Positions 19,509 to 42,955 of a stretch of 64,000 nucleotides of DNA are shown here, in pieces (position 1 is the stretch's first letter; every line of letters begins with the position of its first letter). The notes beneath the pieces are model-generated. The model did no database searches and had not been told where the DNA came from. It saw only the letters and a list, made by a program, of their open reading frames with translations. The position numbers and the translations under genes are program-made. This DNA is from Stappia taiwanensis (lineage in GTDB: Bacteria; Pseudomonadota; Alphaproteobacteria; Rhizobiales; Stappiaceae): positions 62,001-126,000 of the forward strand of contig NZ_BMCR01000010.1 of NCBI RefSeq assembly GCF_014635285.1, written 5' to 3'.

Positions 19509-20135
19509 TCAAGCGTCGTCGCGTTCCGCCGCCCGCAGCATGCCGACCGCCCGGCGCGTCCGCTGCAGCGCGGTGATATGCGCCAGCGCTGAATAGAGGG
19601 CGAGCCCGACGATCACCACATCGGACGAGGCGACCAATGACGCTGGCACCGCGCCGGCGATGATCAGCATTACGCACAGGAAAATCGTCCGCTCCAGCCG
19701 TTCGAACAGATCCGGCCAGGCCTCGTTGCTGATCGGCATCTCAATGGCCGTGCGGGCCTTGGCATAGCTGGTGAACACCCCGCCCGACAGCGCCAGCAGC
19801 GCCAGCGCCCAGGCATCGTTGACATAGGCGATTGCCGCCAGCACCGCCAGTTCCTGATAGCGGTCGACCATCGCGTCGAAATACCCGCCCGAGCGACTGC
19901 ACATGTCGCGCCGCCGCGCCACCGCCCCGTCCAGCGCGTCGAAGGCGAAGGAAAACGCCAGCGTGACGCCGAAGATCAAAGCATTGCCGTGGATCGCATA
20001 GGCGAGCGAGGTTGCCGCCACCAGCAGAAGGCCGGTCGCCGTCACCTGGTTGGGCGTCATGCCGATGCGCACCAGCGGCGTGGACAGGCTCTCCCACAAC
20101 GGGTCGATATGGCGTTTGAACAGGCCGTCGATCAT
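19509..20135 (-). CDS. CDP-alcohol phosphatidyltransferase family protein
   Basis: A 208-residue inner-membrane enzyme that transfers a phospho-alcohol or phosphatidyl group from a CDP-linked donor. The complete catalytic signature is visible near residues 65-95: FDALDGAVARR, then GGYFDAMVDR, giving D-x2-DG-x2-AR...G-x3-D-x3-D. About six membrane helices are present. I set the start at ATG 20135 (MIDGLFKRHIDP), the usual N-terminus of this family. It follows the FGGY kinase gene on the same strand. Candidate roles in this window are transfer of AEP from CMP-AEP, or an ordinary phospholipid head-group step; the sequence alone does not decide. Confidence 0.9.
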   Translation of the reverse strand: MIDGLFKRHIDPLWESLSTPLVRIGMTPNQVTATGLLLVAATSLAYAIHGNALIFGVTLAFSFAFDALDGAVARRRDMCSRSGGYFDAMVDRYQELAVLAAIAYVNDAWALALLALSGGVFTSYAKARTAIEMPISNEAWPDLFERLERTIFLCVMLIIAGAVPASLVASSDVVIVGLALYSALAHITALQRTRRAVGMLRAAERDDA

Positions 20136-20187
20136 CGATACTGGTTCCGTTTCCTGGCCGGTCTCACCCAGCGCCGTGGTGTGAGGC

Positions 20188-21750
20188 TCAGCGATAGAGC
20201 TTGAGAAGGCGGGAGCGCTGCCGGTCGAGCGCCCGGTAGCGACTGTCGAGCCGGGCCATGCCCGCCGGCTGCGGGTCGTAGCTGCGGGCGGGCAGCGCCG
20301 AGAGGACCGGAGCCGCCGCCTCGACGCTCTCGAACCATCCAAGCCCTGCGCCGGCGATCACCGCCGCGCCGAGAACCCCGGCATTGCGCGGCTCGCGCAC
20401 GTCGATCCGCCGCTTCAGCGCATCGGCCAGCGACTGAACGAAATGCGGATTGACCGCCGCCCCGCCGACCAGCGGCATCGGCAGGTCGTTGCGCACGCCC
20501 TTTTGCCGCGCGACCTTGGACATGGCCCAGCGCATGTTGAGCGCCACCCCTTCCAGCACCGCCCGCAAGAGCGCGTTGCGGTCATGCTGGACGCTGAGCC
20601 CGTAGAAAACGCCACGCAGCCGGTCGTCATCGACCGGCACCCGCTCGCCGGCAAGCCACGGCACGAACACCGGATCGCTCTCGGACGGCTCGCCGATATC
20701 CTCGTAAAGCGCGCCCAGTGCCGCATCGCTGTCGCCGGCGGTCTCGCCGGTCAGCCGCGCCGCCCAGGCAAAGGCGGTGCCGGCGCTCTCCTGGGTGGCG
20801 ATCAGCAGCGGCCGGAAGCCGACGCTGCTGGCAATTGTTGCGTAGGAATGAAAGATGTCGATCCGCCGGGAGGGAAAGAAGCCGGAGAGCCAGGCACTGG
20901 TGCCCGCATAGGCATGAAGCTGCCCATCCGCCATTGCCCCGGAGCCGATGGCCGCCGCGTTGACATCCCCTGCCCCGGCGATCACCGGCAGGCCGGCGGC
21001 AAGCCCCAAATCCGCCGCCGCCGAGGCGGTCAGGCCGCCGACGGTGCTGGTGCCATCGACGATCTCCGGCAGCTTGTCGAGCGGCAGCCCGAGCCGCCCG
21101 GCGAGATAGGGCGACCAGCCCTCCCGGCCGGGGCGGGTGTCCATCATCCAGGTGAGATTGGCGCTGTCCGCCGTGGTGGTGAAACGGCCGGTGGCACGGG
21201 CCAGCAGCCAGTCCTTGACGTCGAGCAGCTTGTGCGACGCGGCCCAGACCTCCGGCTCGTTCTGCTTGACCCAGAGCATCTTCGCCGGCGGATCCATGCC
21301 ATTGTGCGAGGGCGCGCCATTCGCAATCCGGGTCCAGGCGATCAGCTTGTCGAGCCGGTAGCCGGCAATGGAGGGGAACCCGCCATTCATGCGCCGCGAC
21401 AGGGTGCCCGCGCGCTTGTCCAGCCAGATGATCGCCGGGCGCAAGGGGGCGGCATCACGATCGGTACAGACGAGGCCGCACATCTGAGCGCTGAACACCA
21501 GCGCGGCACAGCGCGCGCCAAGGTTCTCGACCCTACCGGCAAGCCCGGCGACGCCGGTGCGGAGTGCGTCCCACCAGTCCTGCGGGTTCTGTTCCGCCTG
21601 TCCCGCTGCGGGAAAGGACAAGGGGTAGGCGACGACCACGCTGGCGATGATCGCAAGCTGCCTGTCCACCGCCGCGAGCTTGACGCCCGACGTTCCGAAA
21701 TCGGCGGCGATTACCAGATCGCGCCCCTGCGCCTTAGCCTGTTCGCTCAA
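20188..21750 (-). CDS. FGGY-family carbohydrate kinase (xylulokinase-like)
   Basis: A cytoplasmic sugar or polyol kinase of about 520 residues. The N-terminal ATP phosphate-1 motif is VIAADFGTSGVKLAA. The FGGY body includes RPAIIWLDKRAG, GLPVIAGAGDVNAAAIGSGA and the C-terminal LVGGAAVNPHFVQSLAD with adenosine-binding glycines. No ATG lies near the domain start. I propose TTG 21750 (MSEQAKAQG); GTG 21795 is the alternative. The sugar is unknown. It lies between a Stealth-type phosphotransferase gene (divergent) and a CDP-alcohol phosphatidyltransferase gene (same strand, 52 bp downstream), so it may supply a phosphorylated head-group or glycan precursor. Confidence 0.85.
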   Translation of the reverse strand: MSEQAKAQGRDLVIAADFGTSGVKLAAVDRQLAIIASVVVAYPLSFPAAGQAEQNPQDWWDALRTGVAGLAGRVENLGARCAALVFSAQMCGLVCTDRDAAPLRPAIIWLDKRAGTLSRRMNGGFPSIAGYRLDKLIAWTRIANGAPSHNGMDPPAKMLWVKQNEPEVWAASHKLLDVKDWLLARATGRFTTTADSANLTWMMDTRPGREGWSPYLAGRLGLPLDKLPEIVDGTSTVGGLTASAAADLGLAAGLPVIAGAGDVNAAAIGSGAMADGQLHAYAGTSAWLSGFFPSRRIDIFHSYATIASSVGFRPLLIATQESAGTAFAWAARLTGETAGDSDAALGALYEDIGEPSESDPVFVPWLAGERVPVDDDRLRGVFYGLSVQHDRNALLRAVLEGVALNMRWAMSKVARQKGVRNDLPMPLVGGAAVNPHFVQSLADALKRRIDVREPRNAGVLGAAVIAGAGLGWFESVEAAAPVLSALPARSYDPQPAGMARLDSRYRALDRQRSRLLKLYR

Positions 21751-21907
21751 GCCCTGTTCCCAACCTGATCGTTCGATTGCCCTTTCGCCGGCCACGGGTT
21801 TATAGAGACTTGCAATCGAAGAGAACAGTCCACCGCACCATTCATCCCGTTCCGGCCCGATCGCGGCGAAGAGCCCGCTCCGGACCGGCCTGCCGGAAAG
21901 GCGCTCG

Positions 21908-22891
21908 ATGCCGGAAGCCAGCACCACCCAGCCCCACAACACCGAGACCGGAATGGATGTGGTCTACACCTGGGTCGATGACACCTTCCCCGGCTATGCC
22001 GAGACCCTGCGCGAGCATGCAAGCGACAAGCGGGATCTCAACCCCAACCGCACCCGCGACAATCTCGACCTTCTGAAATATTCACTGCGCTCGCTGGAGA
22101 CAAACGCGCCCTTCGTGCGCCGGGTGCACCTCTTGACCTGCCGCCCGCAAGTGCCGGACTGGCTGAACGCCGACCATCCCGATCTTCGCCTGGTGCATCA
22201 CGACGAGATCATGGATCCGGCGATCCTGCCGACCTTCAACTCCTTCGCCATCGTCAGCCATCTGGCAAAGCTGCCGGAGCTGTCCGAGCGTTTCCTCTAT
22301 TTCGAGGACGACATGCTCGCCTTCGCGCCGTTCCAGCCGGAGGATTTCGTGAACGCGGACGGCCTTCCCCGGATCTTCGCCAAGGGCCATGACGCGCCGG
22401 TGCATGAGAAGCTCAACCCGGAGACTGAAAGCCCCTGGAACCTGGCGCTTGCCACCGCCAATGCCGCGCTTGACCGGGCTTTCTCGAAGAAGAGCCGGAA
22501 GTTTCTCGCCCATGGCCCTCGGCTGATCGAGCGGGCGCTGTTCGAACAGATGTGCGCCACCTTCCCGGCGGAGATCGAGGCGACCCGCTGCTCGCGCTTC
22601 CGCGCCAATGGCAACGTGCCGCCGGAGTATCTCTACCCGCAGTTCCTCATTGAGACCGGACGGGCGGAGCTGGCCACGGCGACGCAGACCCGCCGCATGA
22701 CCGGCTACGCCTCGCTGGAAAACATCCTGCCCTGGACCTGGTTTCAGCTCACCCGGATGGAACGGCGCCGCCCGGCGACCGTCACCCTGAACGACAGTTT
22801 CAACAACCAGCCCAACCCGCGCGTGGTCGCCTATGTGCGCCGGACGCTGGAGCGCTGGTTTCCCGCGCCCTCGCGCTTCGAGAAACAATAG
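21908..22891 (+). CDS. Stealth family phosphotransferase (glycan phosphodiester synthesis)
   Basis: A 327-residue soluble protein with the four conserved regions of Stealth proteins: CR1 DVVYTWVDD (residues 17-25), CR2 with LLKYSLRSLETNAPFVRRV followed by LPTFNSFAIVSHL and FLYFEDDMLAF, and short CR3/CR4-like blocks (HGPRLIERALFEQM; NDSFNN near the end). The family transfers sugar-1-phosphates (GlcNAc-1-P in the human homologue) and builds phosphodiester-linked capsules in bacteria. AAAGG lies 6 nt before ATG 21908. It is divergent from the FGGY kinase and convergent with a glycosyltransferase gene, which points to decoration of a surface glycan. Confidence 0.92.
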   Translation: MPEASTTQPHNTETGMDVVYTWVDDTFPGYAETLREHASDKRDLNPNRTRDNLDLLKYSLRSLETNAPFVRRVHLLTCRPQVPDWLNADHPDLRLVHHDEIMDPAILPTFNSFAIVSHLAKLPELSERFLYFEDDMLAFAPFQPEDFVNADGLPRIFAKGHDAPVHEKLNPETESPWNLALATANAALDRAFSKKSRKFLAHGPRLIERALFEQMCATFPAEIEATRCSRFRANGNVPPEYLYPQFLIETGRAELATATQTRRMTGYASLENILPWTWFQLTRMERRRPATVTLNDSFNNQPNPRVVAYVRRTLERWFPAPSRFEKQ

Positions 22892-22905
22892 ACGCCGCCC
22901 TCGGG

Positions 22906-24036
22906 CTATCGGCCGAGCGCGGCCTGGAACACCTCAACGAACGCAGGGCCAGCCCGCGCCACGTCGAAGCTGGCCGCATGGCCTTCAGCCCAGGTGCGCA
23001 AACGCGCCCGCTCCTCCGGCTTTCGCGCCAGATCGATCGCCAGCGCCGCCAGCGCCGCCGCATCGCCCGGCGGCACCAGCAGCCGCGCACCCGGGCCGGT
23101 CATCACCGTGGCATAGCCCTCGTTGGCCGCCGCCAGCGGCAAGGTTCCAGCGGCCATCGCCTCGATCAGCACCAGACCGAAGCTCTCGCCATAGGGCGAG
23201 GGCGCGGCGAGAAGGTCGGCGCGTGCCACCAGCTCCCGTGCCATCGCTGCATCCGGCACGGGCACGAGCCGAATGCGGTCGCCGCCGGGTCCCGCCATTG
23301 CCCTGTGCACCAGCGGCTCCAGCTTGCCGCCGCCAGCGACCGTCAGCCGCGCGCCCTTCACCGCCTCGGCGAGGACCGGCCAGGCGGACAGCAGGACATC
23401 AAGCCCCTTGCGTTCCTCGAACCGGCCGAGAAAAACGATCTCCAGCCCCTCGCGCGCATCGGGCGCAGCGCTTGCCGCCTCCCCCGCCTGTCGCCACGAA
23501 GACAAATCGATGGTCGGCGGCAGCACATGCGCCGGCGTTCCCGTCGCCTCCGGGCGCAAATGCGCCAGCGGCGAGACCGAGGGCACGATGGCCGCCAGTG
23601 ACCGTTTCAGGAAGTAGCGCGCCGCCCCGGCCAGTGCCCGGCCACCGGCGCCGGTGGTCTTGTCCGCCGGCAGGGTGGCGTGAAAGGTCGTCACCGTCGG
23701 CAGCCGCAGCCCGCGCCACACCTGCCAGGCCATCAACGGTGTCCAGGGCGTGTGCAGATGCACCAGTTCCGCCCCCCAGTCGCGCAACTCCGCCACCAAC
23801 CTGCGGCGGGCACCCGGGCGGGCATAGGTCAGTTCAAAGCCGGTGCCGAACAGGGAAAACCCGCGCCCGCCGCCGATGTGGTCGACGTGACCAAGGCCTG
23901 TCCCTGCGACCGGCAGCGGCGCGACGATCCGCACCTGATGCCCGGCCTGTTCCAGCCAGGCAGCAAGGTCGAGCACATGGTTTTGCACCCCGCCCGGGCG
24001 GGTCAGGTCATAGGGGCAGATCTCGACGATCTTCAT
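22906..24036 (-). CDS. GT4-family glycosyltransferase
   Basis: A 376-residue GT-B glycosyltransferase that transfers a sugar from a nucleotide donor. The N-terminal acceptor domain starts MKIVEICPYDLTRPGGVQNHV. The C-terminal donor domain has LEIVFLGRFEERKGLDVLLSAW, and the E-x7-E motif is in SPYGESFGLVLIEAMAAGTLP. It resembles phosphatidylinositol mannosyltransferase-type and other GT4 enzymes of polar-lipid and lipid-linked glycan synthesis. Its ATG overlaps the stop codon of the upstream CDP-alcohol phosphatidyltransferase gene (ATGA), so the two are coupled. Glycosylation of an inositol- or phospho-headed lipid is therefore a reasonable hypothesis. Confidence 0.9.
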   Translation of the reverse strand: MKIVEICPYDLTRPGGVQNHVLDLAAWLEQAGHQVRIVAPLPVAGTGLGHVDHIGGGRGFSLFGTGFELTYARPGARRRLVAELRDWGAELVHLHTPWTPLMAWQVWRGLRLPTVTTFHATLPADKTTGAGGRALAGAARYFLKRSLAAIVPSVSPLAHLRPEATGTPAHVLPPTIDLSSWRQAGEAASAAPDAREGLEIVFLGRFEERKGLDVLLSAWPVLAEAVKGARLTVAGGGKLEPLVHRAMAGPGGDRIRLVPVPDAAMARELVARADLLAAPSPYGESFGLVLIEAMAAGTLPLAAANEGYATVMTGPGARLLVPPGDAAALAALAIDLARKPEERARLRTWAEGHAASFDVARAGPAFVEVFQAALGR

Positions 24037-24779
24037 GAAGCGGCCCGGCCGAAGGACTGCAGCCCGGCATCGACCACATCCGTCACCGCATAGGCGATGA
24101 GGAACACCACCAGCCAGCCGATGCTGCCAAATGCCCAGCCGGCCAGCAGCAGAAGCGGAATGGCACCGCTGAGACCGGCGACGAAGGCAACCAGCACCTC
24201 GCCCGCCGAAATGCCCCCCAAAACGCCTGATGAGATCCCCGCCGCCGCATCGGCGGTGGCCTCCGCTTTTGCCGGGCCGGCGTCGCGCACCACCCGGGCG
24301 TAGAGCCGCAGCCAGCCGGCGGCACAGCCAAGCGCGGTCCAGAAAAAACCGGTTCCGGCGACCCGGTCGGCGAGCAGGCCGATACTGGCATAAAGCAGGC
24401 CCCAATGGGCCATGTCGACAAGGAAATCGAGCATGCCGCCGAACCGCGACGCCCGTGCGGTGATCCGGGCAAGCGCCCCGTCAACGCAATCGAGGATCAG
24501 CACCGCGCAGCTCAAGGCGACGACAGCGGGGCCGGCGACAGAGAGCGGCAACAGCCCGGCGCTTGCCGGCAACATCAGCACCAAAAGGCCGGAAAAAGCG
24601 GTGATCGCGCTCGGGCTCACCGCCGTCCGGGCGAAGAGCCAGACCAGCGGAAAACTCCAGACCCGGAAGAAAACCACCACCGCCCAGTCGCCGCGCAGCT
24701 CGTCCTCTATCTTGCCGTTCCGATAATCGGCGGCGAGTGCCGCCAGCGTTGGCTTTCGCCGCATGTCACCGATACCCAC
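24033..24779 (-). CDS. CDP-alcohol phosphatidyltransferase family protein
   Basis: A 248-residue membrane enzyme with the intact catalytic signature LDCVDGALARITARASRFGGM then LDFLVDMAHW (split at residues 92-125). At least six membrane helices follow. The N-terminus NGKIEDELRGDWAVVVFFR is amphipathic and resembles head-group transferases that use a soluble CDP-linked donor. The gene is coupled by a 4-bp overlap to a GT4 glycosyltransferase gene and is divergent from a cytidylyltransferase gene 67 bp away. Together with the inositol-3-phosphate synthase gene in the same island, a CDP-inositol (or CDP-choline/CMP-AEP) dependent lipid synthesis is plausible. This is inference from layout. Confidence 0.9.
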   Translation of the reverse strand: MGIGDMRRKPTLAALAADYRNGKIEDELRGDWAVVVFFRVWSFPLVWLFARTAVSPSAITAFSGLLVLMLPASAGLLPLSVAGPAVVALSCAVLILDCVDGALARITARASRFGGMLDFLVDMAHWGLLYASIGLLADRVAGTGFFWTALGCAAGWLRLYARVVRDAGPAKAEATADAAAGISSGVLGGISAGEVLVAFVAGLSGAIPLLLLAGWAFGSIGWLVVFLIAYAVTDVVDAGLQSFGRAAS

Positions 24780-24846
24780 ACTGTCCCTTGCCGAGGCGTC
24801 ACGCCTCCCCTAATACTGACCCGCCTTATCACAAACCGATGGTCCT

Positions 24847-25638
24847 ATGCGCAATATCACCGCTATTCTTCTTGCCGCCGGACGGGGCGTGCGCATGGGG
24901 GCCCGTGGCCGGATGACGCCAAAGGGCCTTCTGTCGATCGGCGACCGGTCCTTTGTCGAGGAATCGCTAGATACCTTGCGCGCCCATGACATCGGCGCGA
25001 TCCGGATCGTCACCGGCCATCTGGAAGAGCAGTATCGGGAAATGACCGCCAAGGGGCAGCCCGGCGTGACGCTGACGCATAATCCCGACTATGCGGTCAA
25101 GGGATCGCTGCACAGCCTCCTGGTCGGCCTCGATGGCCACACCGGCCCGTGCCTGGTGCTGGAAACCGACCTGATCTATGAACCGCGTGCCATTGCCGCC
25201 GCCATCGGCACGACGGACTGGTCGGCGCTGCTGGTATCCGGACCGACCGAGGCCGGCGATGAGGTCTATGTCTGGGCGGATGACCGCACTGGCAGCCCTT
25301 GCCTGCGCGACATGTCGAAGAGCGCCGGCCAATGGCCGGATCATCCCCATGGCGAGTTGGTCGGCATCACCCATCTCACTGCCGAAGCGGTCGAGGCGCT
25401 GAAGGCAATCGGCGCGGAGATGGTGGCGGAAACGCCGATGGCCGATTATGAATCCGGTCTGGTGGCGCTGGCCCGCGAACATCCGGTGACCTGCCCGAAG
25501 ATCGACGATCTCGCCTGGGCCGAGGTCGACGACGAGACCATGCTCGCCCGCGCCGCCGAGCGGGTCTATCCGCGCATTGTCGCCGCCCGCCAGACTGCCA
25601 CGAACCAAGGCACCGCCGGCACCCCGGTTCCCGCCTGA
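24847..25638 (+). CDS. Small-molecule phosphate cytidylyltransferase (LicC/IPCT-like NTP transferase)
   Basis: A 263-residue single-domain nucleotidyltransferase. The N-terminal nucleotide loop is ITAILLAAGRGVRMGARGR, followed by TPKGLLSIGDRSFVEESL. The acceptor side has NPDYAVKGSLHSLLVGL and CLVLETDLIYEPRAI, with the metal-binding Asp in ETDLIY. The fold matches phosphocholine cytidylyltransferases (LicC), inositol-1-phosphate cytidylyltransferases and the PntC domain of phosphonate enzymes. It would make a CDP-linked head group from CTP. The neighbouring divergent CDP-alcohol transferase is the obvious user. Substrate choice between inositol phosphate and choline/ethanolamine-type phosphates is open. 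Confidence 0.82.
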   Translation: MRNITAILLAAGRGVRMGARGRMTPKGLLSIGDRSFVEESLDTLRAHDIGAIRIVTGHLEEQYREMTAKGQPGVTLTHNPDYAVKGSLHSLLVGLDGHTGPCLVLETDLIYEPRAIAAAIGTTDWSALLVSGPTEAGDEVYVWADDRTGSPCLRDMSKSAGQWPDHPHGELVGITHLTAEAVEALKAIGAEMVAETPMADYESGLVALAREHPVTCPKIDDLAWAEVDDETMLARAAERVYPRIVAARQTATNQGTAGTPVPA

Positions 25639-25654
25639 GGTCCCCGGCTTTCCG

Positions 25655-26878
25655 TCAATGGGGCCGCGACAGCACCCGCTGTGCGGCAAGCGTTCCGCCA
25701 AGCGCCAGAACAATCGCCAGCCAACTGCTGGTGAAGCCTGACAGGCTGCCGATTTCCCCCATCGCCCAGGAAACCTTGGTCGCCACCAACGCCAGATAGC
25801 CGCACAGGGCCAGCGCGACGATCCGCGTCGGCGCGATGATCCGCCCCGAGCCGGCAATCGGTGCAAGGCTGGCGCCCAAGAGCGCATAGGCGCCAGGCAG
25901 GAACAACGCCGCCCAGCGGCGCCACAGCGCCGCATCCACATCTGGTGTCTTCAGCGGATTGCCCGCCTCCGCCAGCCTCTCCAGCGGCGCCTGCGGCAGG
26001 TAAAACGCCGGAACGTCATAGAATTCAAGGGTTTCGGGAAACAGATCCAGCCGGATATCGATACTGTCGTAGCGGGTCATCAGATAGAGCGATTTGCGCG
26101 CGTAGCCCTGGCTGCGGGCCGCCCCCTCACCGCCCTGTTGCGGCAGGCTGGCCCAGAGATCGACATCGTAGAACCGCCAGAAGTTCTCATGCCCGGTCGG
26201 CACGGCACGCCTGGCGACCAGCACATCGCGCAGATCGCCGCTCACCACCCCCCGGTAGAGCTCCACGCCGCGCAGCTCCGGCGCCCCGTCGCGCAGAACC
26301 GTTGCCCGCAGCGCGTTGCCGCTCAGGACGAACCAGCGCTTTTCGCCAACGACACCACGGGCAAAGCGCGCGCCATAGCCGCCCAGTTCCAGCTCCGCCT
26401 GGGCAAACACCGCCGCCGGACGCCACCAGCGTTCAAGCGAGAATTGCAGCGCGCCGGTGAGGCAGCCGAACACCGCCACCACCGCCAGTGTCTGCGCCGG
26501 CGACCAGCCTGCCCCGGCCAGAACCGTCGTCTCGCGGTTGAACAGGCGATAGAGCTCGGAGGCGAAGAGGCCGATGAAACAGGCCACCGGAAACAGCCGG
26601 GTGACGATATCGACCGCCCGGTAGAGCAGATAGCGGGCCAGAATGCCGCCCTTGCCCATCTCCAGCACCTCGGCCCGCGCCAACACGTCATCGAGGTTCT
26701 GCGCCAGATCGATCGCGAAGGCGATGATCAGGAACATCAGCATCACCAGGCTGGTCACCCGCAGATAAAGCAGCAGCGCCCGCCGCCCGGCAATGCCGAA
26801 CACCGGCGCCCGCGCGCCGGACCAGGTACCCGCCTGCCGCCGTCCCAAAAGCGTGGAGGTCAGGGCGCTCATCATCAT
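25655..26878 (-). CDS. LptG-like permease (YjgP/YjgQ family)
   Basis: A 407-residue inner-membrane protein of the LptF/LptG family. It has the diagnostic order of three N-terminal helices (LLLYLRVTSLVMLMF onward, with LFASELYRLFNRETTVLAGAGWS), a periplasmic beta-jellyroll domain (about 150-300), and three C-terminal helices. Family members form the ABC permease that extracts LPS and drives it to the periplasmic bridge. The start at 26878 (MMMSALTS) overlaps the upstream LptF-like stop as ATGA. This pair is embedded among lipid-synthesis genes rather than with the usual lptF/lptG neighbours, so it may be a paralogous pair serving another lipid. Confidence 0.85.
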   Translation of the reverse strand: MMMSALTSTLLGRRQAGTWSGARAPVFGIAGRRALLLYLRVTSLVMLMFLIIAFAIDLAQNLDDVLARAEVLEMGKGGILARYLLYRAVDIVTRLFPVACFIGLFASELYRLFNRETTVLAGAGWSPAQTLAVVAVFGCLTGALQFSLERWWRPAAVFAQAELELGGYGARFARGVVGEKRWFVLSGNALRATVLRDGAPELRGVELYRGVVSGDLRDVLVARRAVPTGHENFWRFYDVDLWASLPQQGGEGAARSQGYARKSLYLMTRYDSIDIRLDLFPETLEFYDVPAFYLPQAPLERLAEAGNPLKTPDVDAALWRRWAALFLPGAYALLGASLAPIAGSGRIIAPTRIVALALCGYLALVATKVSWAMGEIGSLSGFTSSWLAIVLALGGTLAAQRVLSRPH

Positions 26879-28092
26879 GCCCGCTGTCCGACCGGGCGCA
26901 GCAGGGAATGGCGGCGCACCCGCACCATCACGCCCAGCAGCAACAGTGCGGCCACGGCCATTGCCACACCGCCGCCGACCATCGTCCATGCGCCCTTGCC
27001 GGCCAGATCGGCAAGCGCCGAACGCAAGACAAGGTCGAATGCCAACAGCGCAGCGCAGGCCGCCGGCATGACGAAGAAATTCGACAGTCCACCTTGTGCC
27101 AGAACACAGGCGACCAGCGCCATGACCGGGGCCACCAGCGCCGCCAGCGCCCGGCCATAGCGTTCCGCCGCGATCTCCCGGGCCTCGCGCGCCGTGTCGC
27201 TTGCCCCTTGCGCCCACAGGGCTTCGGCGAAGGTCCATTCCTCCGCCACCTCGCTGCGCGCCGCATAGCGCAGGATGTTGCGCAGGCTCACCGGCACCTC
27301 GACGTTTTCCACCCGCACCAGGGGCAGCATCGGCACATCGGCGATATCGGGCTCGGCGAGCGCCCTGAGGTTCGGCCCGCGTCCGCTGCTCGATACCGCA
27401 CCGCTGCCGCTCTCATCAATGCGCTTGAAATCATAGGCATTCACCCGGCCGAGCCCGAGATTGTAGTTCCCTTGCGCATCCGGACCGATCAGCTTCCAGT
27501 CCTCCGCCTGGGTCACGCGCCAGGCGCCATCCTCTCCCGGCTGGTGTACGAACAGGCTCTCATGCGGCGGCGAAACGCTGCTGTCGCTCAGCGCGGCGAA
27601 GGTCTTGCCGCGAATGGTCTCGATCAGCGTTCCCTCGCTGGGTTCGGTGATCCGCCGGAACAGAAGATCGCTCGTCAGGTTGAACACCACCGCCCGGTTG
27701 GTGCTGGCGGCCAAAGGGTTGAGGAAACCGGACACAAGCAAGCTGGCGCCAAAGGCCAGAACGCCCACCACAAGCACCACTTTCAGGGCCAACGACCAGG
27801 ACACGCCAGCGGCGGACAGCGCCACCAGCTCCCGTTCCTCGCGCGCGGCGACAAGCGCGAAATAGACGCCGATGACGCAGGCCAGCGCCAGGGCGAAGTC
27901 GAAGATCTCCGGCGAGGTCAACACCAGGATCGACAGCGCGGCGACAATCCCGCCGCCATTGCCCAGCACCTCTTCCAGAATGCCGGTCAGTTTTTCGGCG
28001 AGAAACACCACCTCGATGGTGGCAACGACGATCACCACCTTGGCCAGAATGCGTGCCATCAGGGCGCGCGAGGCAACGCCGCCGATCCTCAT
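26875..28092 (-). CDS. LptF-like permease (YjgP/YjgQ family)
   Basis: A 405-residue partner of the LptG-like protein with the same topology: three N-terminal helices including VVFLAEKLTGILEEVL and REERELVALSAAGVSWSLAL, a periplasmic jellyroll domain (about 130-290) and three C-terminal helices. REERELVALSAAG is the cytoplasmic coupling region seen in LptF/G proteins. The ATPase (LptB) would be shared from elsewhere. Whether these are the cell's only LptF/G or a specialised second set cannot be decided from the window. The co-located lipid genes favour transport of the island's lipid. It is divergent from pgpA. Confidence 0.85.
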   Translation of the reverse strand: MRIGGVASRALMARILAKVVIVVATIEVVFLAEKLTGILEEVLGNGGGIVAALSILVLTSPEIFDFALALACVIGVYFALVAAREERELVALSAAGVSWSLALKVVLVVGVLAFGASLLVSGFLNPLAASTNRAVVFNLTSDLLFRRITEPSEGTLIETIRGKTFAALSDSSVSPPHESLFVHQPGEDGAWRVTQAEDWKLIGPDAQGNYNLGLGRVNAYDFKRIDESGSGAVSSSGRGPNLRALAEPDIADVPMLPLVRVENVEVPVSLRNILRYAARSEVAEEWTFAEALWAQGASDTAREAREIAAERYGRALAALVAPVMALVACVLAQGGLSNFFVMPAACAALLAFDLVLRSALADLAGKGAWTMVGGGVAMAVAALLLLGVMVRVRRHSLLRPVGQRA

Positions 28093-28255
28093 GCCGGACC
28101 GTGCCGCATGGGAAAAGGCGCAGGCCGCACGCCTGCCCGCCGCCCATGGCGCATCGCATTGCGTTGGTCTGTCCGCATCGTCTCCGGGCCGGTTTCGTGA
28201 TAGTCAGTCGGCTGCAACACCGCCCGATTCCCTTTAATATCATAGGTTGCCGACG

Positions 28256-28711
28256 ATGCGCCGTCTTGCCTATCTCGTTGGGTTGTCACTGGGCGCCGGC
28301 CATGCACCGTTCTGGCCCGGCACCTTCGGCGCCGCCGTCGGCCTCCTCTTTGCCGCCAGCCTGATGGCGCTTGCCTGGCCGGTCAAGCTCGCGGGCCTGA
28401 TGGCGCTGTTCGCTATCGGCGTCTGGGCCTCGGCGGCGGTTGCCGCCGACACCGGCCTTGAGGACCCGCAAATCGTCGTTGTCGATGAAAGCTTCGGCGC
28501 CGCCGCCGTGGTTCTGGTGCTGCCGTTCGAGCCGCTCTGGTGGGCCGCCGGCTTCATCGCCTTTCGCGCCTTCGACATTCTCAAGCCCTTCCCGGTCAAC
28601 TGGGTGCAGGACAAGGTGAAGGGCGGGCTCGGCATCATGCTCGATGATGCCGCCGCCGCGTTCTACGCCATCCTCCTGCTGCTGCCGGCAAGCTGGCTTC
28701 TCAGCGGCTGA
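28256..28711 (+). CDS. pgpA: Phosphatidylglycerophosphatase A family protein
   Basis: A 151-residue membrane phosphatase that removes the phosphate of phosphatidylglycerophosphate or of a similar phosphorylated lipid head group. Motifs are FWPGTFGAAVGLL, the metal-binding DPQIVVVDESFGA, FRAFDILKPFPV and GGLGIMLDDAAAAF. The last differs slightly from the usual GIMLDDLLAG, but both Asp residues are kept. ATG 28256 is preferred over an upstream TTG. It is the only plus-strand gene of this part of the island, convergent with cdsA. Next to inositol phosphate synthase it could act as a phosphatidylinositol-phosphate phosphatase instead of the classical role; both are possible. Confidence 0.88.
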   Translation: MRRLAYLVGLSLGAGHAPFWPGTFGAAVGLLFAASLMALAWPVKLAGLMALFAIGVWASAAVAADTGLEDPQIVVVDESFGAAAVVLVLPFEPLWWAAGFIAFRAFDILKPFPVNWVQDKVKGGLGIMLDDAAAAFYAILLLLPASWLLSG

Positions 28712-28715
28712 TCCC

Positions 28716-29639
28716 TTAACCAAACAGCCGCAACAGAAGAACGAGCGCCGGACCAGCGATCAGCCAGGCGTCGGCGATATCCAGCACCCCGCCCTGCCGG
28801 GGCAACACCTGCGGATAGTCCTTGACGCCGGAGGCCCGCTTCAGCCGCGACCCGGCAAGATCGCCGACAACCGCCGTCGCCGCGATCAACGCCGCGACCA
28901 GCACCGCCAGCCAGAGCGGCCAGCCGAGCACCAGCGGTCCGGCCAGCGCCGCGGTCAGGGCGAGCGCCGCGCCACCGATCGCCAGCCCCTCGATGGTCTT
29001 GCGCGGGCTCAGCACCGGAAACGCCGGGCGGTGACCGAACACCTTGCCGCCGAGCAGGGCATAGCTGTCGTAGGTTTCCACCAGAAGAAAGGCGAGCAGC
29101 AGCAGACCGGCATTGTCACCGGTCAGCGCGCAAGCCACGAACAGCACCAGCGGCGACACCGGGAAGAGCACAAGTTCAGCGGCAATCCTGCCCCATCCCC
29201 CCTCACCGCCCGGCATCATCGCCAGGGTGCCAGCCGCGATCAGCCCGGCAAGAAGCACGAGCCCGGCGCTCCAGACGAGCGGCAGGGCGCCAACCGCAAC
29301 GCCCACGGCGAAGCACAGCGCCCCCAGACCGAGGGGCAGAAGCCTGCGCGTGGCCGATCCGCTTGCCCCTTCGCGGCGCAGCAGCGCCACCTGCCCGGCT
29401 TCATGGCCGATGCGCAGGCACAGGGCGGCAAGGCACAGCCACAGCACCGGCCCACCAAACACGAAAGGCAAGACGGCAGCGGTGACAATGACCAGTTCGG
29501 TGACGAAGGTCGGCCAGAGCGGGCGCGCCTTGTCGGCGGTGGCCGGCACGAGGCTGCCCAGCCCCAGCACCAGTGCGCCGAAACCGAGGCCAATGGCAAT
29601 GGCCCAGAGCACGAGATCCGGCGCCAGAACGACCGTCAC
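28716..29639 (-). CDS. CdsA-like CDP-diacylglycerol synthase, divergent signature
   Basis: A 307-residue multi-pass membrane cytidylyltransferase (phosphatidate + CTP to CDP-diacylglycerol). The C-terminal third has FPVLSPRKTIEGLAIGG and the CDS signature region SRLKRASGVKDYPQVLP-RQGG with LDIAD after it. The standard signature reads P-G-H-G-G and D-R-x-D; here the His is Gln and the Arg is missing, while both Asp residues and the KR..KD part remain. This suggests a diverged acceptor, such as a sphingoid or unusual lipid phosphate. GTG 29639 overlaps the SDR stop codon (GTGA). It ends the minus-strand run that starts at the palmitoyltransferase-like gene. Confidence 0.85.
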   Translation of the reverse strand: MTVVLAPDLVLWAIAIGLGFGALVLGLGSLVPATADKARPLWPTFVTELVIVTAAVLPFVFGGPVLWLCLAALCLRIGHEAGQVALLRREGASGSATRRLLPLGLGALCFAVGVAVGALPLVWSAGLVLLAGLIAAGTLAMMPGGEGGWGRIAAELVLFPVSPLVLFVACALTGDNAGLLLLAFLLVETYDSYALLGGKVFGHRPAFPVLSPRKTIEGLAIGGAALALTAALAGPLVLGWPLWLAVLVAALIAATAVVGDLAGSRLKRASGVKDYPQVLPRQGGVLDIADAWLIAGPALVLLLRLFG

Positions 29640-30463
29640 GACCGCTCCTTGCGGGCGATGCGCATCTGATAGCGGCGCAGCAAGGGGGCCAGCATGCTGT
29701 GGCCATAGGCCAGCATGGTCATCTGCGCGCCCGGCGCCACCAGGAACCGGCCGCGCGATGCACCGCGAACGATCCGCTCGGCCACCCGCTCCGCCGACCA
29801 CAATCCGCCGCCGGCGGTGATCGCCTGGGTGATCGCCGGCTTGGTCTCGTTTTCCGCCACAAGCTGTGGGGTATCCGTATCCGGCGGATAGGCCAGGGTC
29901 ACCGAAATGCCCTTGCCGGCCAACTCGACCCGCAACACCTCGGCCAGGCCGCGCAGGGCGAATTTCGACGGCGCATAGGCCGCATAGCCGTAGATGCCGA
30001 AAAACGCCGCGCCGGACGAGACGAACACCATGCGTCCGCCGCCGGCCTCGGCCATCTCCGGGGCGACGACCCGGGCAATATTGAGCGCACCGAAATAATT
30101 GGTCGCCATCTGATCGTGATGATCATCGACCGGCTGATCGAGGAAATGGCCGGGCCTTGCGATCCCGGCATTGAGCACCGCCCAATCCGGCGGCCCCATC
30201 TCCGCGATCGCCGCCTGAACGGCGGCCGCGCCGGCCTGCGCATCAGCCACATCGGCCGGATAGATACCGATGCGCGCCTCCGGCGCCATGGCCGCCAGCT
30301 GCTGCCGCGCGGCCTCCAGCCGGTCGGCGCGGCGCGACACCAGCGCCAGATCGAAACCAAGGCCGGCAAGCCTGCCCGCCAGCGCCAGGCCGATGCCGCT
30401 GCTGCCGCCGGTGATCAGCGCAACCGGCCGTCCATCCTGCCTGTCGCGCCCACCGGCCGCCAT
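29636..30463 (-). CDS. SDR oxidoreductase, 3-ketosphinganine reductase-like
   Basis: A 275-residue short-chain dehydrogenase. The NADP-binding TGGSSGIGLALAGRLA and VSRRADRLE are at residues 14-45, NAG near 95, catalytic Ser in VFVSSGAAFFG, and Tyr/Lys in YAPSKFALRGLAEVLR. The sequence after the active site, VTLAYPPDTDTPQL followed by ENETKP, is a hallmark of eukaryotic 3-ketodihydrosphingosine reductases, and the hydrophobic C-terminus (MLAYGHSMLAPLLRR) could bind membranes. It would reduce the keto product of the serine-palmitoyltransferase-like enzyme encoded upstream on the same strand. It starts 2 bp after the inositol phosphate synthase stop codon and overlaps cdsA. Confidence 0.85.
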   Translation of the reverse strand: MAAGGRDRQDGRPVALITGGSSGIGLALAGRLAGLGFDLALVSRRADRLEAARQQLAAMAPEARIGIYPADVADAQAGAAAVQAAIAEMGPPDWAVLNAGIARPGHFLDQPVDDHHDQMATNYFGALNIARVVAPEMAEAGGGRMVFVSSGAAFFGIYGYAAYAPSKFALRGLAEVLRVELAGKGISVTLAYPPDTDTPQLVAENETKPAITQAITAGGGLWSAERVAERIVRGASRGRFLVAPGAQMTMLAYGHSMLAPLLRRYQMRIARKERS

Positions 30464-30465
30464 GA

Positions 30466-31578
30466 TCAGCCCTCCCGGCCTTCCGCGAAGGCCAGAAGCC
30501 GCTCGTAGCCTTCCGAATCCTCGATCTGCGCCGGCGGATGCTTGAACAGGAACGCGCTCGCGTCCTCGATCGGACCGGCCATACCACGGTCGCGGGCGAT
30601 CCGCGCGCAGCGGATGGCGATCAGTGCCATCGCCGCCGCATTCGGCGAATCCTCGACCTCAAGCCGCATTTCCACATGGGTGCGCACACCGCCGAACAGG
30701 CGTCCCTCAAGGCGCACATAGGCCACCTTGCGGTCTTCCAGCCACGGCACATAGTCCGACGGACCGATGCGGATCTCGCTGTCGTCGAGGCGGGCGTTCA
30801 TCGCCGTCTGCACCGCCTCGGTCTTCGATTCCCGCTTCATCGTCAGACGGTCCATGTCCATCATGTTGAGGAAGTCGGTATTGCCGCCCACATTGAGCTG
30901 ATAGGTCTTGTCCACCTTGACGCCGCGCATGTCGGCGAGCCGGGCGAGGGTGCGGTGGGTGATGGTGGCGCCGAACTGCGCCTTGAAGTCATCGCCGACA
31001 ATCGGCACGCCCGCATCGCGGAACCGCTTGGCCCAGACCGGGTCGGAGGCGATGAATACCGGAATGCCATTGACGAAGGCGCAACCGGCCTCCAGCGCGC
31101 ATTCGGCGTAGAACTCGGTGGCCTCGATCGAGCCGACCGGCAGGAAGTTGATGATCACCTCGGCCCGCGCCTCGCGCAGGGCGGCGACCACGCCCGCCTT
31201 GTCGAGCGGTGCGTCCGGCGAGACCACGAAGCTGCGGTCCGGCGCCTGGTTGCGCATGAAGGCCGAGACGCCATCGAGATCCGGGCCGCGGAACACCGGG
31301 GCGGTCATCTCCGACAGGGCATCGTGGAAGATCTCGGTGCAGTTGGGCAGCGCGACCGCCGCCTCGCCGACCGTGCGCCCGACCTTGCGTGCGTCCACAT
31401 CGAAGGCGGCGACGATTTCCACGTCGGACGGCTTGTAGCCGCCAAGCACCGGGAACGGAACGCCGATCGCGTCCTCGCCCTTTTCGCGGCAATAGGCAAC
31501 ACCTTGCACCAGCGAGCTGGCGCAGTTGCCGGCGCCGACGATCGCCGTGCGGATCGAAGTGGCGGAAGAACCTGTCAT
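30466..31578 (-). CDS. Inositol-3-phosphate synthase
   Basis: A 370-residue cytoplasmic NAD-dependent enzyme that converts glucose-6-phosphate to myo-inositol-3-phosphate. The Rossmann start IRTAIVGAGNCASSLVQG and the core IINFLPVGS, GIPVFIASD, DDFKAQFGATITHRTLA and VGGNTDFLNMMD match the short actinobacterial/archaeal type; eukaryotic enzymes are about 510 residues. I chose ATG 31578; earlier in-frame sequence is not conserved-looking. It sits between the DUF4833 gene and the SDR gene in one same-strand run. In alphaproteobacteria its presence here argues for an inositol-containing lipid or glycolipid made by this island. Confidence 0.92.
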   Translation of the reverse strand: MTGSSATSIRTAIVGAGNCASSLVQGVAYCREKGEDAIGVPFPVLGGYKPSDVEIVAAFDVDARKVGRTVGEAAVALPNCTEIFHDALSEMTAPVFRGPDLDGVSAFMRNQAPDRSFVVSPDAPLDKAGVVAALREARAEVIINFLPVGSIEATEFYAECALEAGCAFVNGIPVFIASDPVWAKRFRDAGVPIVGDDFKAQFGATITHRTLARLADMRGVKVDKTYQLNVGGNTDFLNMMDMDRLTMKRESKTEAVQTAMNARLDDSEIRIGPSDYVPWLEDRKVAYVRLEGRLFGGVRTHVEMRLEVEDSPNAAAMALIAIRCARIARDRGMAGPIEDASAFLFKHPPAQIEDSEGYERLLAFAEGREG

Positions 31579-31696
31579 GTTACTGCTTAACCCCTGCCAA
31601 TGCCGGCGCGCTGTGCCGGCCTTTCGTTCTTGCGGCGCCCTCGCGCACGCGGCTGTCTTCATGAGAAGTGTCGTTGAAGCATCTGGCGGTGCGGCG

Positions 31697-32371
31697 TTAC
31701 TCGATCTGGATGCGCTCCACCAGCGGCTTGCCGGTGGCCGCGTCCTGACCCATCACCGAGACCGTGCGCACGCTCGGCATCAGCCCGCTCTCGTCCACAT
31801 CGATATAGGCATAGACCGGCCGCATCTGCCGCCCTCCGGCCGGCACGGTGAGTTCCGCCCGCCCCGGCGCCACCTGCCGCAGGGTCGCCTTGCGTTCCGG
31901 ATAGGACACCACGTAAAGCCGGAACACGCTGGGATCGTCCGTCCGCTCGGTGCGCACTCCGAAGGCGAAATTGTCCTCGATCATCTTCAGCGGCAGGCGC
32001 TCGCCCGTCGTGTTGTAGCGGCGCCAGTAGGCGGCCACCGGCTCATTCGGGTCGAGCGTGCCGTCCTCCCGGAAGCGGGCCGCGTAGATCACCGTGTTGG
32101 GATTGGTCGAACGCTGCAGGTAGAACAGCATGTTCGGCTCGTTCGGCACCGGAAACTCCGGCCGCACCACCGGCAGCGTCTTCACCTCGGTCACGACGGA
32201 GGTCCGCGCCCGCTGGGTCGACGCGGCAAAGCCCCGCTTCACCCCTTCTTGCGCGACAACCGAACCGTCCGTCCCGCCTGCAAGGCACAGGAGCACCAGC
32301 AGCGCCCGCGCGCCGCCAGACAACAGGCGCGAGAGAGCAAAACCCGATGGGGAGGCAACGCGGGCAATCAT
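31697..32371 (-). CDS. DUF4833-type exported protein
   Basis: A 224-residue protein of unknown function with an N-terminal hydrophobic export signal (about residues 20-37, ARALLVLLCLAGG). The body begins VPNEPNMLFYLQRSTNPNTV, followed by YAARFREDGTLDPNEPVAAYW and KMIEDNFAFGVRTE, which I recognise as the DUF4833 pattern. It ends in an extended strand-rich segment with YAYIDVDESG. The family is often near lipid-synthesis genes. It sits 8 bp downstream of the palmitoyltransferase-like gene and 118 bp before inositol phosphate synthase, so it is probably a periplasmic factor of the same pathway. The molecular role is unknown. Confidence 0.72.
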   Translation of the reverse strand: MIARVASPSGFALSRLLSGGARALLVLLCLAGGTDGSVVAQEGVKRGFAASTQRARTSVVTEVKTLPVVRPEFPVPNEPNMLFYLQRSTNPNTVIYAARFREDGTLDPNEPVAAYWRRYNTTGERLPLKMIEDNFAFGVRTERTDDPSVFRLYVVSYPERKATLRQVAPGRAELTVPAGGRQMRPVYAYIDVDESGLMPSVRTVSVMGQDAATGKPLVERIQIE

Positions 32372-32379
32372 GATGAGGG

Positions 32380-33618
32380 TCAGGCCCCGCCAAGCGCCAA
32401 CGAGCGCACCATCTCCGGATCCTGCCCCGCCGCGACCACCGCCGCGACAATGCCGATGGTCCGGTCCATCTCCTCGTCCGTATGAGCGGCGGAGATGAAG
32501 AAGCGGATGCGAGGCTGATCCTTGGGCACGCCGATCTGCACGATCGGCGGGGCATAAACGCCCTGTTCGAGCAGTGCCTGGGAGGCGATCATCGTCTGTT
32601 CCGGGCTGGAGAACAAAAGCGGCACCACGCCGCAGCCGATCGCCGCGCCGGTGTCGAGCCCGGCTTCCCGCGCCCGGTCCCGGAAGTAGACGGAGTTGCG
32701 ATGCAGCCGCTCAACCAGTTCCGGATGCTTGCGCAACTGGGTCAGGGCGCCATGGGCACTGCCGAGCGCCGCCGGCGCCAGACCGACGCTGTAGACGAAG
32801 CCGGGCAGGGTGAAGCGCAGCCAGTCGATCACGCCCTTTTCCGCGCAGACGAAGCCGCCGGAGGAGACGAAGGACTTGGACAGAGTGCCGACGGTCAGCT
32901 CGATCCGGCCCGGATCGATGTCGAAATGCTCGCACAGGCCCCGCCCGGTGGCGCCGAGAACACCATAGGAATGGGCCTCGTCAACCAAAAGCCAGGCGTC
33001 GTGATTTTCCTTGATCTCGACCAGGCGCGGCAGATCCGGGATGTCGCCATCCATCGAATAGAGCCCTTCGACCACCACCAGCACGTTGCGATACTGGCCG
33101 CGCACCTCGCCAAGCTGCCGGTCCAGGTCATCGAGATCGTTGTGGCGGAAGGTGCGATGGTCGTAGCGGCCGTTCTTGGCGCCAATGAAGATCGAGTTAT
33201 GGGCCAGCTCATCGATCAGAACCAGATCGCGCGGCCCCATCAGGTAGTTGATCAGCGACAGGTTCACCAGATAGCCGCTGACAAGGCACATCACATCGCC
33301 GACACCGAGGAACTCGGCCATCTCGCTTTCGAAGGCCCGGTGGCCGGAGCGTTCGCCGCCCACCAGCCGGGAAGCGCCGACACCGCTGCCCAGCCGATGC
33401 AGCTCGTCGCTGGCTTCCCGGATCACCTCGGGATGATGGCTGAGGCCAAGATAGTCATAATGGCCGAAGCTGACGAAGGGGATGTTCTTCTGTTCGCAGA
33501 TCTCGCGCTGCCGGTCCACCGGAAGGAAGTAGGGGTTGTGCCGCTCGATGATCGACTTGCCGGCGAGACGGAAACGCCGCTCAGCGACAACGGAAAAGCT
33601 TGGCCGATCAGGCTTCAT
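32380..33618 (-). CDS. Serine palmitoyltransferase-like alpha-oxoamine synthase
   Basis: A 412-residue PLP enzyme of the alpha-oxoamine synthase family, which condenses an amino acid with an acyl-CoA or acyl-ACP. Motifs: FGHYDYLGLSHHPEV, GVGASRLVGGERSGHRAFE, the PLP-ring His in AHNSIFIGAKNG, DEAHSYGVLGATGRG, and the PLP lysine in VGTLSKSFVSSGG. The length and the N-terminal ERHNPYFLPVDR extension favour serine palmitoyltransferase over 8-amino-7-oxononanoate or 2-amino-3-ketobutyrate enzymes. The 3-ketosphinganine-reductase-like gene downstream supports this. No acyl carrier protein or ceramide synthase is recognisable nearby, so the acyl donor and final N-acylation are open questions. Confidence 0.85.
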   Translation of the reverse strand: MKPDRPSFSVVAERRFRLAGKSIIERHNPYFLPVDRQREICEQKNIPFVSFGHYDYLGLSHHPEVIREASDELHRLGSGVGASRLVGGERSGHRAFESEMAEFLGVGDVMCLVSGYLVNLSLINYLMGPRDLVLIDELAHNSIFIGAKNGRYDHRTFRHNDLDDLDRQLGEVRGQYRNVLVVVEGLYSMDGDIPDLPRLVEIKENHDAWLLVDEAHSYGVLGATGRGLCEHFDIDPGRIELTVGTLSKSFVSSGGFVCAEKGVIDWLRFTLPGFVYSVGLAPAALGSAHGALTQLRKHPELVERLHRNSVYFRDRAREAGLDTGAAIGCGVVPLLFSSPEQTMIASQALLEQGVYAPPIVQIGVPKDQPRIRFFISAAHTDEEMDRTIGIVAAVVAAGQDPEMVRSLALGGA

Positions 33619-36458: not shown

Positions 36459-36465
36459 CTGCCGC

Positions 36466-38103: not shown

Positions 38104-38202
38104 GGGCAGTCCTTTCAATGATGACGGCAGGCAGGGAGGCAAGGAAGAACATGGGTCAGGCGCCGGTGCAGGCCCTGTGGCGGACCCGGGCCGGTCCCTT
38201 CC

Positions 38203-39021: not shown

Positions 39022-39174
39022 GCGCTTTCCCTCGCTGCCGCCGATCCGATGGCCCGCAAGCCTGCACCCGGAAGTTCCCCCGGGGCGCCCGGGCGGCTCA
39101 TTGGTAGCGAAGGAGCCGGCAAAAGAAAAGCACCACGCCGCCGCACGATAAGCGCCGAAGAGCGAGCTCGGGGG

Positions 39175-40014: not shown

Positions 40015-40024
40015 TCAGACGGCC

Positions 40025-41401: not shown

Positions 41402-41466
41402 GCGGCTGTTCCTCGGTGGCGACACCCGCGCCGGCACACTTCAAGGCCGGCGCGGGAGGCTTCCCC

Positions 41467-42921: not shown

Positions 42922-42955
42922 GTGGGAACCTCCCTCTGCGTGTCCGCGCGCCGGA

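Follow-up and report, generated by a model that had tools for sequence, protein, structure and literature searches.

In Caulobacter crescentus, sphingolipid synthesis genes (CC_1168-CC_1152) lie next to LptC2/F2/G2, the proposed carriers of phosphosphingolipids, and the transport of sphingolipids to the outer membrane is stated there as not known (PMC11324152). Inositol sphingolipids are described for Bacteroides thetaiotaomicron, whose inositol lipid cluster is BT_1522-BT_1526, and the same source reports a sphingolipid resembling phosphoinositol dihydroceramide (PI-DHC) from an alphaproteobacterium, Novosphingobium acidiphilum (PMC9246714). PfSgaAB of Pseudomonas fluorescens includes an α-oxoamine synthase (AOS) with demonstrated serine palmitoyltransferase (SPT) activity, and the producing strain makes sphinganines along with compounds 154 Da heavier, proposed from their mass to be phosphoglycerol sphingolipids (PMC12134224). 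If phosphoglycerol accounts for these 154 Da, none remains for an N-acyl chain. Here, we analyzed a 64,000-nucleotide stretch of Stappia taiwanensis (contig NZ_BMCR01000010.1, positions 62,001 to 126,000; hereafter the window), in which an earlier note had proposed, from the sequence alone, a sphingoid and inositol lipid island with its own Lpt-type transporter. We confirm the gene set described in that note, at the position given there, 19509-33618. We establish the family-level identities of its genes, the conservation of the set and the phylogeny of its AOS and Lpt proteins, and we find no candidate ceramide synthase in the genomes tested. Our preferred reading is a conserved sphingoid/inositol envelope-lipid locus with its own Lpt-type export pair, which we judge to be about as likely as not.

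Conservation of the island

Every family that the earlier note had named in the island is present, as judged by matches to Pfam and to NCBIfam or other curated models. Beyond that list, we found an FGGY kinase, a Stealth-type transferase and, upstream, a complete 2-aminoethylphosphonate (AEP) pathway consisting of PhnW, Ppd and phosphoenolpyruvate (PEP) mutase (Table 1).

We searched genome contigs with two short AOS patterns, using one genome per species across 84,980 species, and retrieved 28 loci, a sample that is no census. In 23 of them, the genes for AOS, DUF4833, inositol-3-phosphate synthase (MIPS), a short-chain dehydrogenase/reductase (SDR), a CdsA-like enzyme, LptF2, LptG2 and a GT4 glycosyltransferase occur together and in the same order. 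These core loci come mainly from Stappia and Shimia, with others from Hongsoonwoonella and from records labelled 'Rhodobacteraceae', and the same core set is found in a genome from another family of the class (G022). Finding the same genes in the same order in 23 of 28 loci and in G022 argues for more than chance clustering. The five loci lacking the full core are L037, L038, L039, L041 and L043, the last of which stops at a contig end. The window's AOS protein is 94% identical to that of Stappia indica and 80% identical to that of Stappia stellulata. Of the matches from further genome searches, only those retrieved as loci entered the analysis.

The genes around the core are more variable. 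Each of the 16 Shimia-type core loci (L023-L036, L040 and L044) continues with an FGGY kinase, and 14 of them also carry a CDP-alcohol transferase resembling phosphatidylinositol phosphate (PIP) synthases, which we call CDPOH_A; the remaining two end before its expected position. Seven further core loci, six from the Stappia group plus L022, stop short of both genes, and the window has both. Among all 28 loci, a PntC-like cytidylyltransferase gene occurs in 12, a second CDP-alcohol transferase in nine (all of which also carry the PntC-like gene), a Stealth gene in eight, the PEP mutase (PepM), Ppd and PhnW genes in six, and PgpA in six, all of the Stappia group. The earlier note had counted PgpA into the pathway, and by analogy with BT_1525 it might be a dedicated PIP phosphatase. 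We rejected this role: PgpA lies outside the Shimia islands, and since there is exactly one copy in each of 26 genomes, it is probably a housekeeping gene.

Probable sphingoid and inositol genes

The AOS residues H140, D213, H216 and K248, which we take to comprise the pyridoxal phosphate (PLP) lysine, a stacking histidine and a catalytic aspartate and histidine, are invariant in all 25 island rows. The same residues are also present in BioF, KBL and HemA rows, and thus do not discriminate SPT. We built a tree of 67 AOS sequences, from which 11 rows taken as near-duplicates (L019, L027, L029, L032-L035, L092-L094 and L097) had been removed beforehand; the L043 AOS, cut by the contig end, was left out of the extraction. 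The island AOS and its relatives formed a 22-row clade with support of 100/100. A 15-row clade (93/89) was its sister, the two being joined at 100/99, and the canonical SPTs made up another clade (100/99), with the island AOS outside it. Escherichia coli BioF and KBL and the host's own HemA fell outside both the joint island and sister clade and the canonical SPT clade, on long branches and with unsure placement. The AOS thus did not cluster with BioF or KBL, an outcome that the earlier note had named as speaking against its proposal.

Two kinds of genomic neighborhood bear on the product. In 13 of the 15 sister rows, the end of a polyketide synthase (PKS) adjoins the AOS, which is the architecture of P. 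fluorescens PfSgaAB. In four cases (L037, L038, L039 and G334), an AOS of the island's own clade has a candidate ceramide synthase homologue about 1 to 8 kb away. For the SDR, the 3-ketosphinganine reductase TSC10 scores ahead of other SDRs among solved structures. Taken together, the AOS clade, its relatives linked to candidate ceramide synthases, the PKS-AOS architecture of the sister clade and the TSC10-like SDR suggest that a sphingoid base is the likely product of the AOS and SDR, presumably with serine as the AOS substrate, and they support the sphingoid backbone that had been proposed for this island. Elsewhere in the host genome (4.42 Mb in 20 contigs), locus L048 holds a second AOS (G000:C1:44991-46154; 43% identical) after a PKS of 2535 aa, an SgaAB-like pair whose neighbors are three genes for capsule synthesis and one for polysaccharide export.

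The earlier note had recognized no ceramide synthase and called the pathway incomplete in the window; as far as tested, it is still incomplete genome-wide. Our query was a protein of 382-383 aa from two SPT clusters (47% mutual identity), a putative ceramide synthase assigned from its neighborhood, its size and a weak GNAT match. The two-sequence profile matched six of six SPT genomes, two of which had supplied the query, as well as G334 and the genome of L037 (G405). It matched none of 13 island genomes, comprising the window's own, G022 and 11 of the 23 core genomes, the other 12 having been left out. The product should therefore not be assumed to be a ceramide; its sphingoid base may be either not N-acylated or acylated by an unrelated enzyme. 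In locus L041, from a Phycisphaeraceae metagenome-assembled genome (MAG), positions 4289-8625 encode a protein in which AMP-binding, phosphopantetheine and AOS parts are fused, and next to it comes a candidate ceramide synthase homologue.

The MIPS matched inositol-3-phosphate synthase 1gr0 with 370 bits and was under the mycothiol_INO1 cut-off (405 of 638). Its identity agrees with the earlier note, but the start given there, 31578, falls inside the longest open reading frame (ORF), 30466-31662. The PDB matches of CDPOH_A are the inositol-phosphate transferases 4mnd and 6h53, and it scores below the curated PIP synthase (PIPS) cut-offs. The motif D..DG..AR...G...D...D, given for PIP synthases (PMC9246714), is kept in 15 of 15 CDPOH_A rows; the second CDP-alcohol transferase carries it too. 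Together, MIPS and the PIP-synthase-like enzyme support the inositol phosphate synthesis that had been claimed for the island.

The clearest sign that these modules form one pathway comes from L037, found in a Rhodobacteraceae MAG. Its positions 115-12752 hold PAP2_3, a candidate ceramide synthase, KAS, MaoC, LptG/LptF, an ABC ATPase, an LPG_synthase_TM protein, MIPS, AOS, SDR and a CDP-alcohol transferase, and from this content it looks like an inositol-phosphoceramide-type cluster. The L037 MIPS is 51% identical to that of the window, and in the AOS and Lpt trees the corresponding L037 proteins are placed within or beside the island clades.

LptF2/LptG2, DUF4833 and the accessory phosphonate genes

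Two adjacent island genes, LptF2 and LptG2, each encode a full-length LptF_LptG domain by Pfam. A canonical LptF/LptG pair lies on another contig and scores 220 and 210 bits, compared with 86 and 59 bits for the island pair. The fifth LptF_LptG match in the host genome proved to be a type II secretion protein. We built trees of 36 and 44 rows with a selection of the retrieved loci, 11 and nine respectively, plus the window; unless stated otherwise, the results below are from the 44-row tree. LptF and LptG sequences split at 100/100. On each side, the island proteins and those of L037 formed their own clade (100/99), separate both from the alphaproteobacterial clades of lipopolysaccharide (LPS) type (99/98 for LptF, 100/100 for LptG) and from the clades of SPT-cluster permeases (100/99 and 99/95), with E. 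coli LptF and LptG outside all three alphaproteobacterial clades. The branching order of the Lpt clades, the E. coli rows and the second LptG of G334 are unsettled in this tree, which also did not uphold a sister relationship between the island and SPT-cluster pairs that the 36-row tree had hinted at. The comparison proposed in the earlier note therefore came out in favor of a pair distinct from the host's LPS-type permeases.

In two of the SPT genomes searched, G012 (L103) and G039 (L108), the sole LptF/LptG pair adjoins spt, and in a third, G145 (L114), the sole pair lies near the candidate ceramide synthase and distant from spt; in these genomes, that pair need not be a specialized copy. 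G334 has two pairs, and the LptF near its AOS joins the SPT-cluster clade. The ABC ATPase upstream of the Shimia islands was set aside, as it belongs to an oligopeptide transporter in the single locus annotated (L030).

Within the class, a DUF4833 match over the cut-off occurs in two of 385 genomes. These are G022 and the genome of the window, and in both it sits between AOS and MIPS; a third match was under the cut-off. Its N-terminus, read by eye, resembles a signal peptide, and an AlphaFold model made with 23 sequences shows an all-beta domain with mean pLDDT of 85-98 across ten-residue blocks from residue 61 on. We considered and rejected an LptA/LptC-like fold: Foldseek returned no PDB match at E<=0.001, the best having an E of 0.014 and a TM-score of 0.21. 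A profile comparison with the DUF2141 of SPT clusters was negative, and no paper in the open-licence PubMed Central (PMC) literature that we searched names DUF4833. From its position and composition, we would guess that it is the periplasmic partner of the exporter.

The phosphonate genes are less widely distributed. The island cytidylyltransferase scores 131 bits against PntC (6pd1) versus 35 bits against LicC, and it keeps all five functional PntC residues (R15, K25, E104, K153 and E196; PMC6697681) in the window and in 12 of 12 locus rows. Of these five, K25 alone is retained in the NTP-transferase domain that forms part of the PEP mutase fusion (six rows). PEP mutase is over its cut-off in seven of 26 genomes, and adjoins the island in all seven: the window's own, five from Stappia and Hongsoonwoonella, and a 'Rhodobacteraceae' MAG whose AOS is as close to that of the window as is the AOS of S. 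stellulata. It was not found over the cut-off in any of the other 19 genomes searched, of which 18 have a core locus and one is that of L037. Six loci (L022-L025, L036 and L040) have the PntC-like gene, yet no over-cut-off PEP mutase in the genome, and there the enzyme may use scavenged AEP or another substrate. The PntC-like gene by itself is thus weakened as proof of a phosphonate product. A phosphonate head group, which the earlier note had offered as an alternative to inositol, gains from the upstream synthesis genes, but these are confined to the Stappia/Hongsoonwoonella type, and the phosphonate arm is therefore accessory. Beside the phosphonate synthesis genes, positions 38203-52039 of the window hold genes resembling those for phosphonate catabolism and uptake, with families that include a PhyH dioxygenase, a class III aminotransferase, an aldehyde dehydrogenase, a phosphodiesterase family, a Na/Pi cotransporter and an ABC transporter.

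Table 1. Island genes and adjoining features, by position in the window. PIP, phosphatidylinositol phosphate; ORF, open reading frame.
Feature	Position	Strand	Supporting match or remark
AOS-family PLP enzyme, SPT-like, of a separate clade	32380..33618	-	top matches among solved structures: SPT entries 3a2b and 8guh
DUF4833, apparently secreted all-beta protein	31697..32371	-	Pfam, 102 bits
Inositol-3-phosphate synthase MIPS (longest ORF)	30466..31662	-	Pfam Inos-1-P_synth
SDR, 3-ketosphinganine-reductase-like	29636..30463	-	top solved relative TSC10 (8jat), E 3.4e-27
Divergent CdsA-like cytidylyltransferase (longest ORF; true start probably downstream)	28716..29801	-	Pfam CTP_transf_1, 112 bits
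LptF2, second-copy permease	26875..28092	-	Pfam LptF_LptG, profile 1-346 of 353; own clade
LptG2, second-copy permease (longest ORF)	25655..27238	-	Pfam LptF_LptG, profile 8-347 of 353; own clade
GT4 glycosyltransferase, weakly MshA-like	22906..24039	-	NCBIfam MshA, 52 bits vs cut-off 462
FGGY carbohydrate kinase, xylulokinase-like	20188..21942	-	Pfam; XylB 250 bits vs cut-off 380; best PDB match a xylulose kinase
PIP-synthase-like CDP-alcohol transferase CDPOH_A (longest ORF)	19509..20342	-	archaetidylinositol-phosphate synthase, 118 bits, cut-off 180
Accessory: PntC-like AEP cytidylyltransferase	24847..25638	+	PntC 6pd1, 131 bits
Accessory: second CDP-alcohol transferase	24033..24779	-	motif intact; seen only with PntC-like gene
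Accessory: Stealth-type phosphotransferase	21908..22891	+	Pfam Stealth_CR2/CR3/CR4
PgpA, probably a housekeeping copy lying here by chance	28247..28711	+	sole PgpA of the genome
Accessory: PEP mutase fused to NTP-transferase domain (longest ORF)	36466..38142	-	TIGR02320, 390 bits, over cut-off
Accessory: phosphonopyruvate decarboxylase Ppd (longest ORF)	35301..36491	-	TIGR03297, 411 bits, over cut-off
Accessory: 2-aminoethylphosphonate transaminase PhnW (longest ORF)	34199..35578	-	NF010006, 453 bits, over cut-off

Within the longest ORFs, homology to more distant relatives starts at about residue 145 of LptG2, and homology of CDPOH_A to its relatives starts at Met 70, near position 20135. The CdsA-like gene is the lowest scorer among three copies in the host genome. 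Outside these regions, positions 8629-13035 of the window encode a caspase-domain protein followed by a CHASE2-adenylate/guanylate cyclase.

Possible products and comparison with described systems

We infer each reaction of the pathway, the order of its steps, the joining of the sphingoid and inositol parts and the export of the product from the gene families present. From serine and a long acyl thioester, the AOS would form a 3-ketosphinganine-like base by condensation, which the TSC10-like SDR would then reduce to a sphinganine. MIPS would provide inositol-3-phosphate, the CdsA-like enzyme would generate a CDP-activated lipid, and CDPOH_A would join inositol phosphate to that lipid, to which the GT4 enzyme may add a sugar. 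LptF2 and LptG2, probably working with the ordinary cellular LptB, would then extract the lipid, and DUF4833 could act as a periplasmic partner on its path to the outer membrane. In Stappia and Hongsoonwoonella, the PEP mutase, Ppd, PhnW, the PntC-like enzyme and the second CDP-alcohol transferase might add an AEP head or substitute it for the first. In its boldest form, the scheme predicts that the product belongs to a lipid class of its own, so far new, with phosphoinositol (and perhaps a sugar) on a non-N-acylated sphingoid base, decorated with AEP in Stappia and exported by a third, lipid-specific LptF/LptG lineage with DUF4833 as periplasmic carrier; this strikes us as fairly unlikely.

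Several observations weigh against a joined sphingoid and inositol lipid. Among the island genes, we recognized no ceramide synthase, dedicated acyl carrier protein (ACP), PAP2/AUR1-type transferase or dedicated PIP phosphatase, and hence no enzyme there that would link the sphingoid base to the inositol head; nor is there a PAP2-type gene of the BT_1522 kind among the annotated island genes, to which the PAP2 search was confined. The FGGY kinase and, our guess aside, DUF4833 have no assigned role in the scheme. The AOS scores below every curated cut-off: its top model is BioF (317 bits, cut-off 426), and it misses the BetaP (288, cut-off 500), CFB (267, cut-off 640) and AlphaP (203, cut-off 670) SPT models. 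These SPT cut-offs are strict, as Caulobacter vibrioides, which bears an SPT, is likewise under the AlphaP cut-off. The island Lpt pair is not nested within the SPT-cluster Lpt clade. The L037 stretch is without DUF4833, a CdsA-like gene and an FGGY kinase, and neither of the two island CDP-alcohol transferases has more than weak similarity to the one in L037. Finally, a taxonomic paper on the Stappiaceae lists phosphatidylethanolamine, phosphatidylglycerol, diphosphatidylglycerol, phosphatidylcholine, phosphatidylmonomethylethanolamine and unidentified amino-, phospho- and glycolipids as polar lipids; in the text available, 'sphingo' does not occur, and phosphatidylinositol is not named in its listing (PMC12080928).

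The same genes could instead make two lipids, with the AOS and SDR yielding free or simply modified sphinganine, MIPS, CdsA and CDPOH_A yielding phosphatidylinositol or a glycosylated form of it, and the Lpt pair exporting one of the two. The missing linking transferase fits this arrangement, as do the likeness of CDPOH_A to PIP synthases that act with CDP-lipids and the normal substrate of CdsA enzymes, phosphatidic acid. However, the core genes are kept together across Stappia and Shimia, and in the related L037 locus a PAP2 enzyme and a candidate ceramide synthase accompany the AOS, SDR, MIPS and Lpt permeases; two separate lipids from one locus therefore seem to us possible but doubtful. 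A different uncertainty concerns the AOS itself, whose substrate specificity is unreadable from its sequence. Given a short acyl donor, or an amino acid other than serine, it might produce a non-sphingoid amino-ketone lipid, and the locus an unrelated aminolipid or glycolipid. BioF being the top-scoring model, albeit under its cut-off, and a C-terminal motif unlike those of both canonical SPT and BioF would be in keeping with such a product. We nonetheless consider it unlikely, given the neighboring TSC10-like SDR, the AOS genes of the same clade that share loci with candidate ceramide synthases, and the SPT activity of the similarly built PfSgaAB (PMC12134224). Least probable in our view, and very unlikely, is that the locus makes an AEP lipid for which the sphingoid and inositol genes supply the anchor: the seven adjoining PEP mutases and the five conserved PntC residues favor it, but PEP mutase is lacking, at the cut-off used, from 18 other genomes with the core locus, and the PntC-like gene is missing from 11 of the 23 core loci.

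A joined sphingoid and inositol lipid with its own exporter would matter in several ways. A compact locus in Stappia and Shimia type strains would open to direct test how bacteria deliver sphingolipids to their outer membrane, which is stated as not known (PMC11324152). Such a locus would also give DUF4833 a function, and would suggest a gene route, possibly without ceramide, to alphaproteobacterial inositol sphingolipids, of which the Novosphingobium lipid has no known gene cluster in the source reporting it (PMC9246714). In the open-licence PMC literature, we found no description of this exact gene set, and by title and abstract no paper on Shimia sphingolipids; the titles examined from the literature on Stappia polar lipids and phosphatidylinositol, and on Stappia, phosphonates and pepM, offered nothing on this set, which is weak as evidence of absence. 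The earlier note's impression that the set is undescribed thus stands for the literature searched, although parts of it have precedents in Caulobacter (PMC11324152) and Bacteroides (PMC9246714).

As in the island, sphingolipid synthesis genes in C. crescentus lie beside second copies of LptF and LptG. The Caulobacter cluster alone has an SPT with its own ACP, an acyl-ACP synthetase, CerR, CerS, a phosphoglycerate head and LptC2, whereas the island has inositol genes, a word absent from the main text of that paper (PMC11324152). In our trees, which do not contain Caulobacter's own sequences, neither the AOS nor the Lpt pair of the island belongs to the SPT-cluster clades. B. thetaiotaomicron is likewise a sphingolipid producer that has MIPS and a CDP-alcohol transferase of the PIP-synthase type, in which the same motif occurs. 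Its SPT is a separate gene, BT_0870, and its cluster holds the PI-DHC synthase BT_1522 and the PIP phosphatase BT_1525 (PMC9246714). No equivalent of BT_1522 was recognized among the island genes, which include LptF2 and LptG2; 'Lpt' does not appear in the main text of that paper (PMC9246714).

PfSgaAB(C) shares with the island an AOS, a proposed 3-ketosphinganine reductase and proposed head-bearing sphinganines without the mass of an N-acyl chain, but its acyl chain comes from an iterative PKS and its head is phosphoglycerol, with no inositol or Lpt genes mentioned in the parts of the paper available (PMC12134224). PfSgaB itself is not in our AOS tree. With Pnt clusters, the Stappia loci share PEP mutase, Ppd, an AEP transaminase and a PntC-type cytidylyltransferase; there, carbohydrate or lipid nucleophiles are expected to capture CMP-AEP (PMC6697681), and in the island the likely partner would be a CDP-alcohol transferase.

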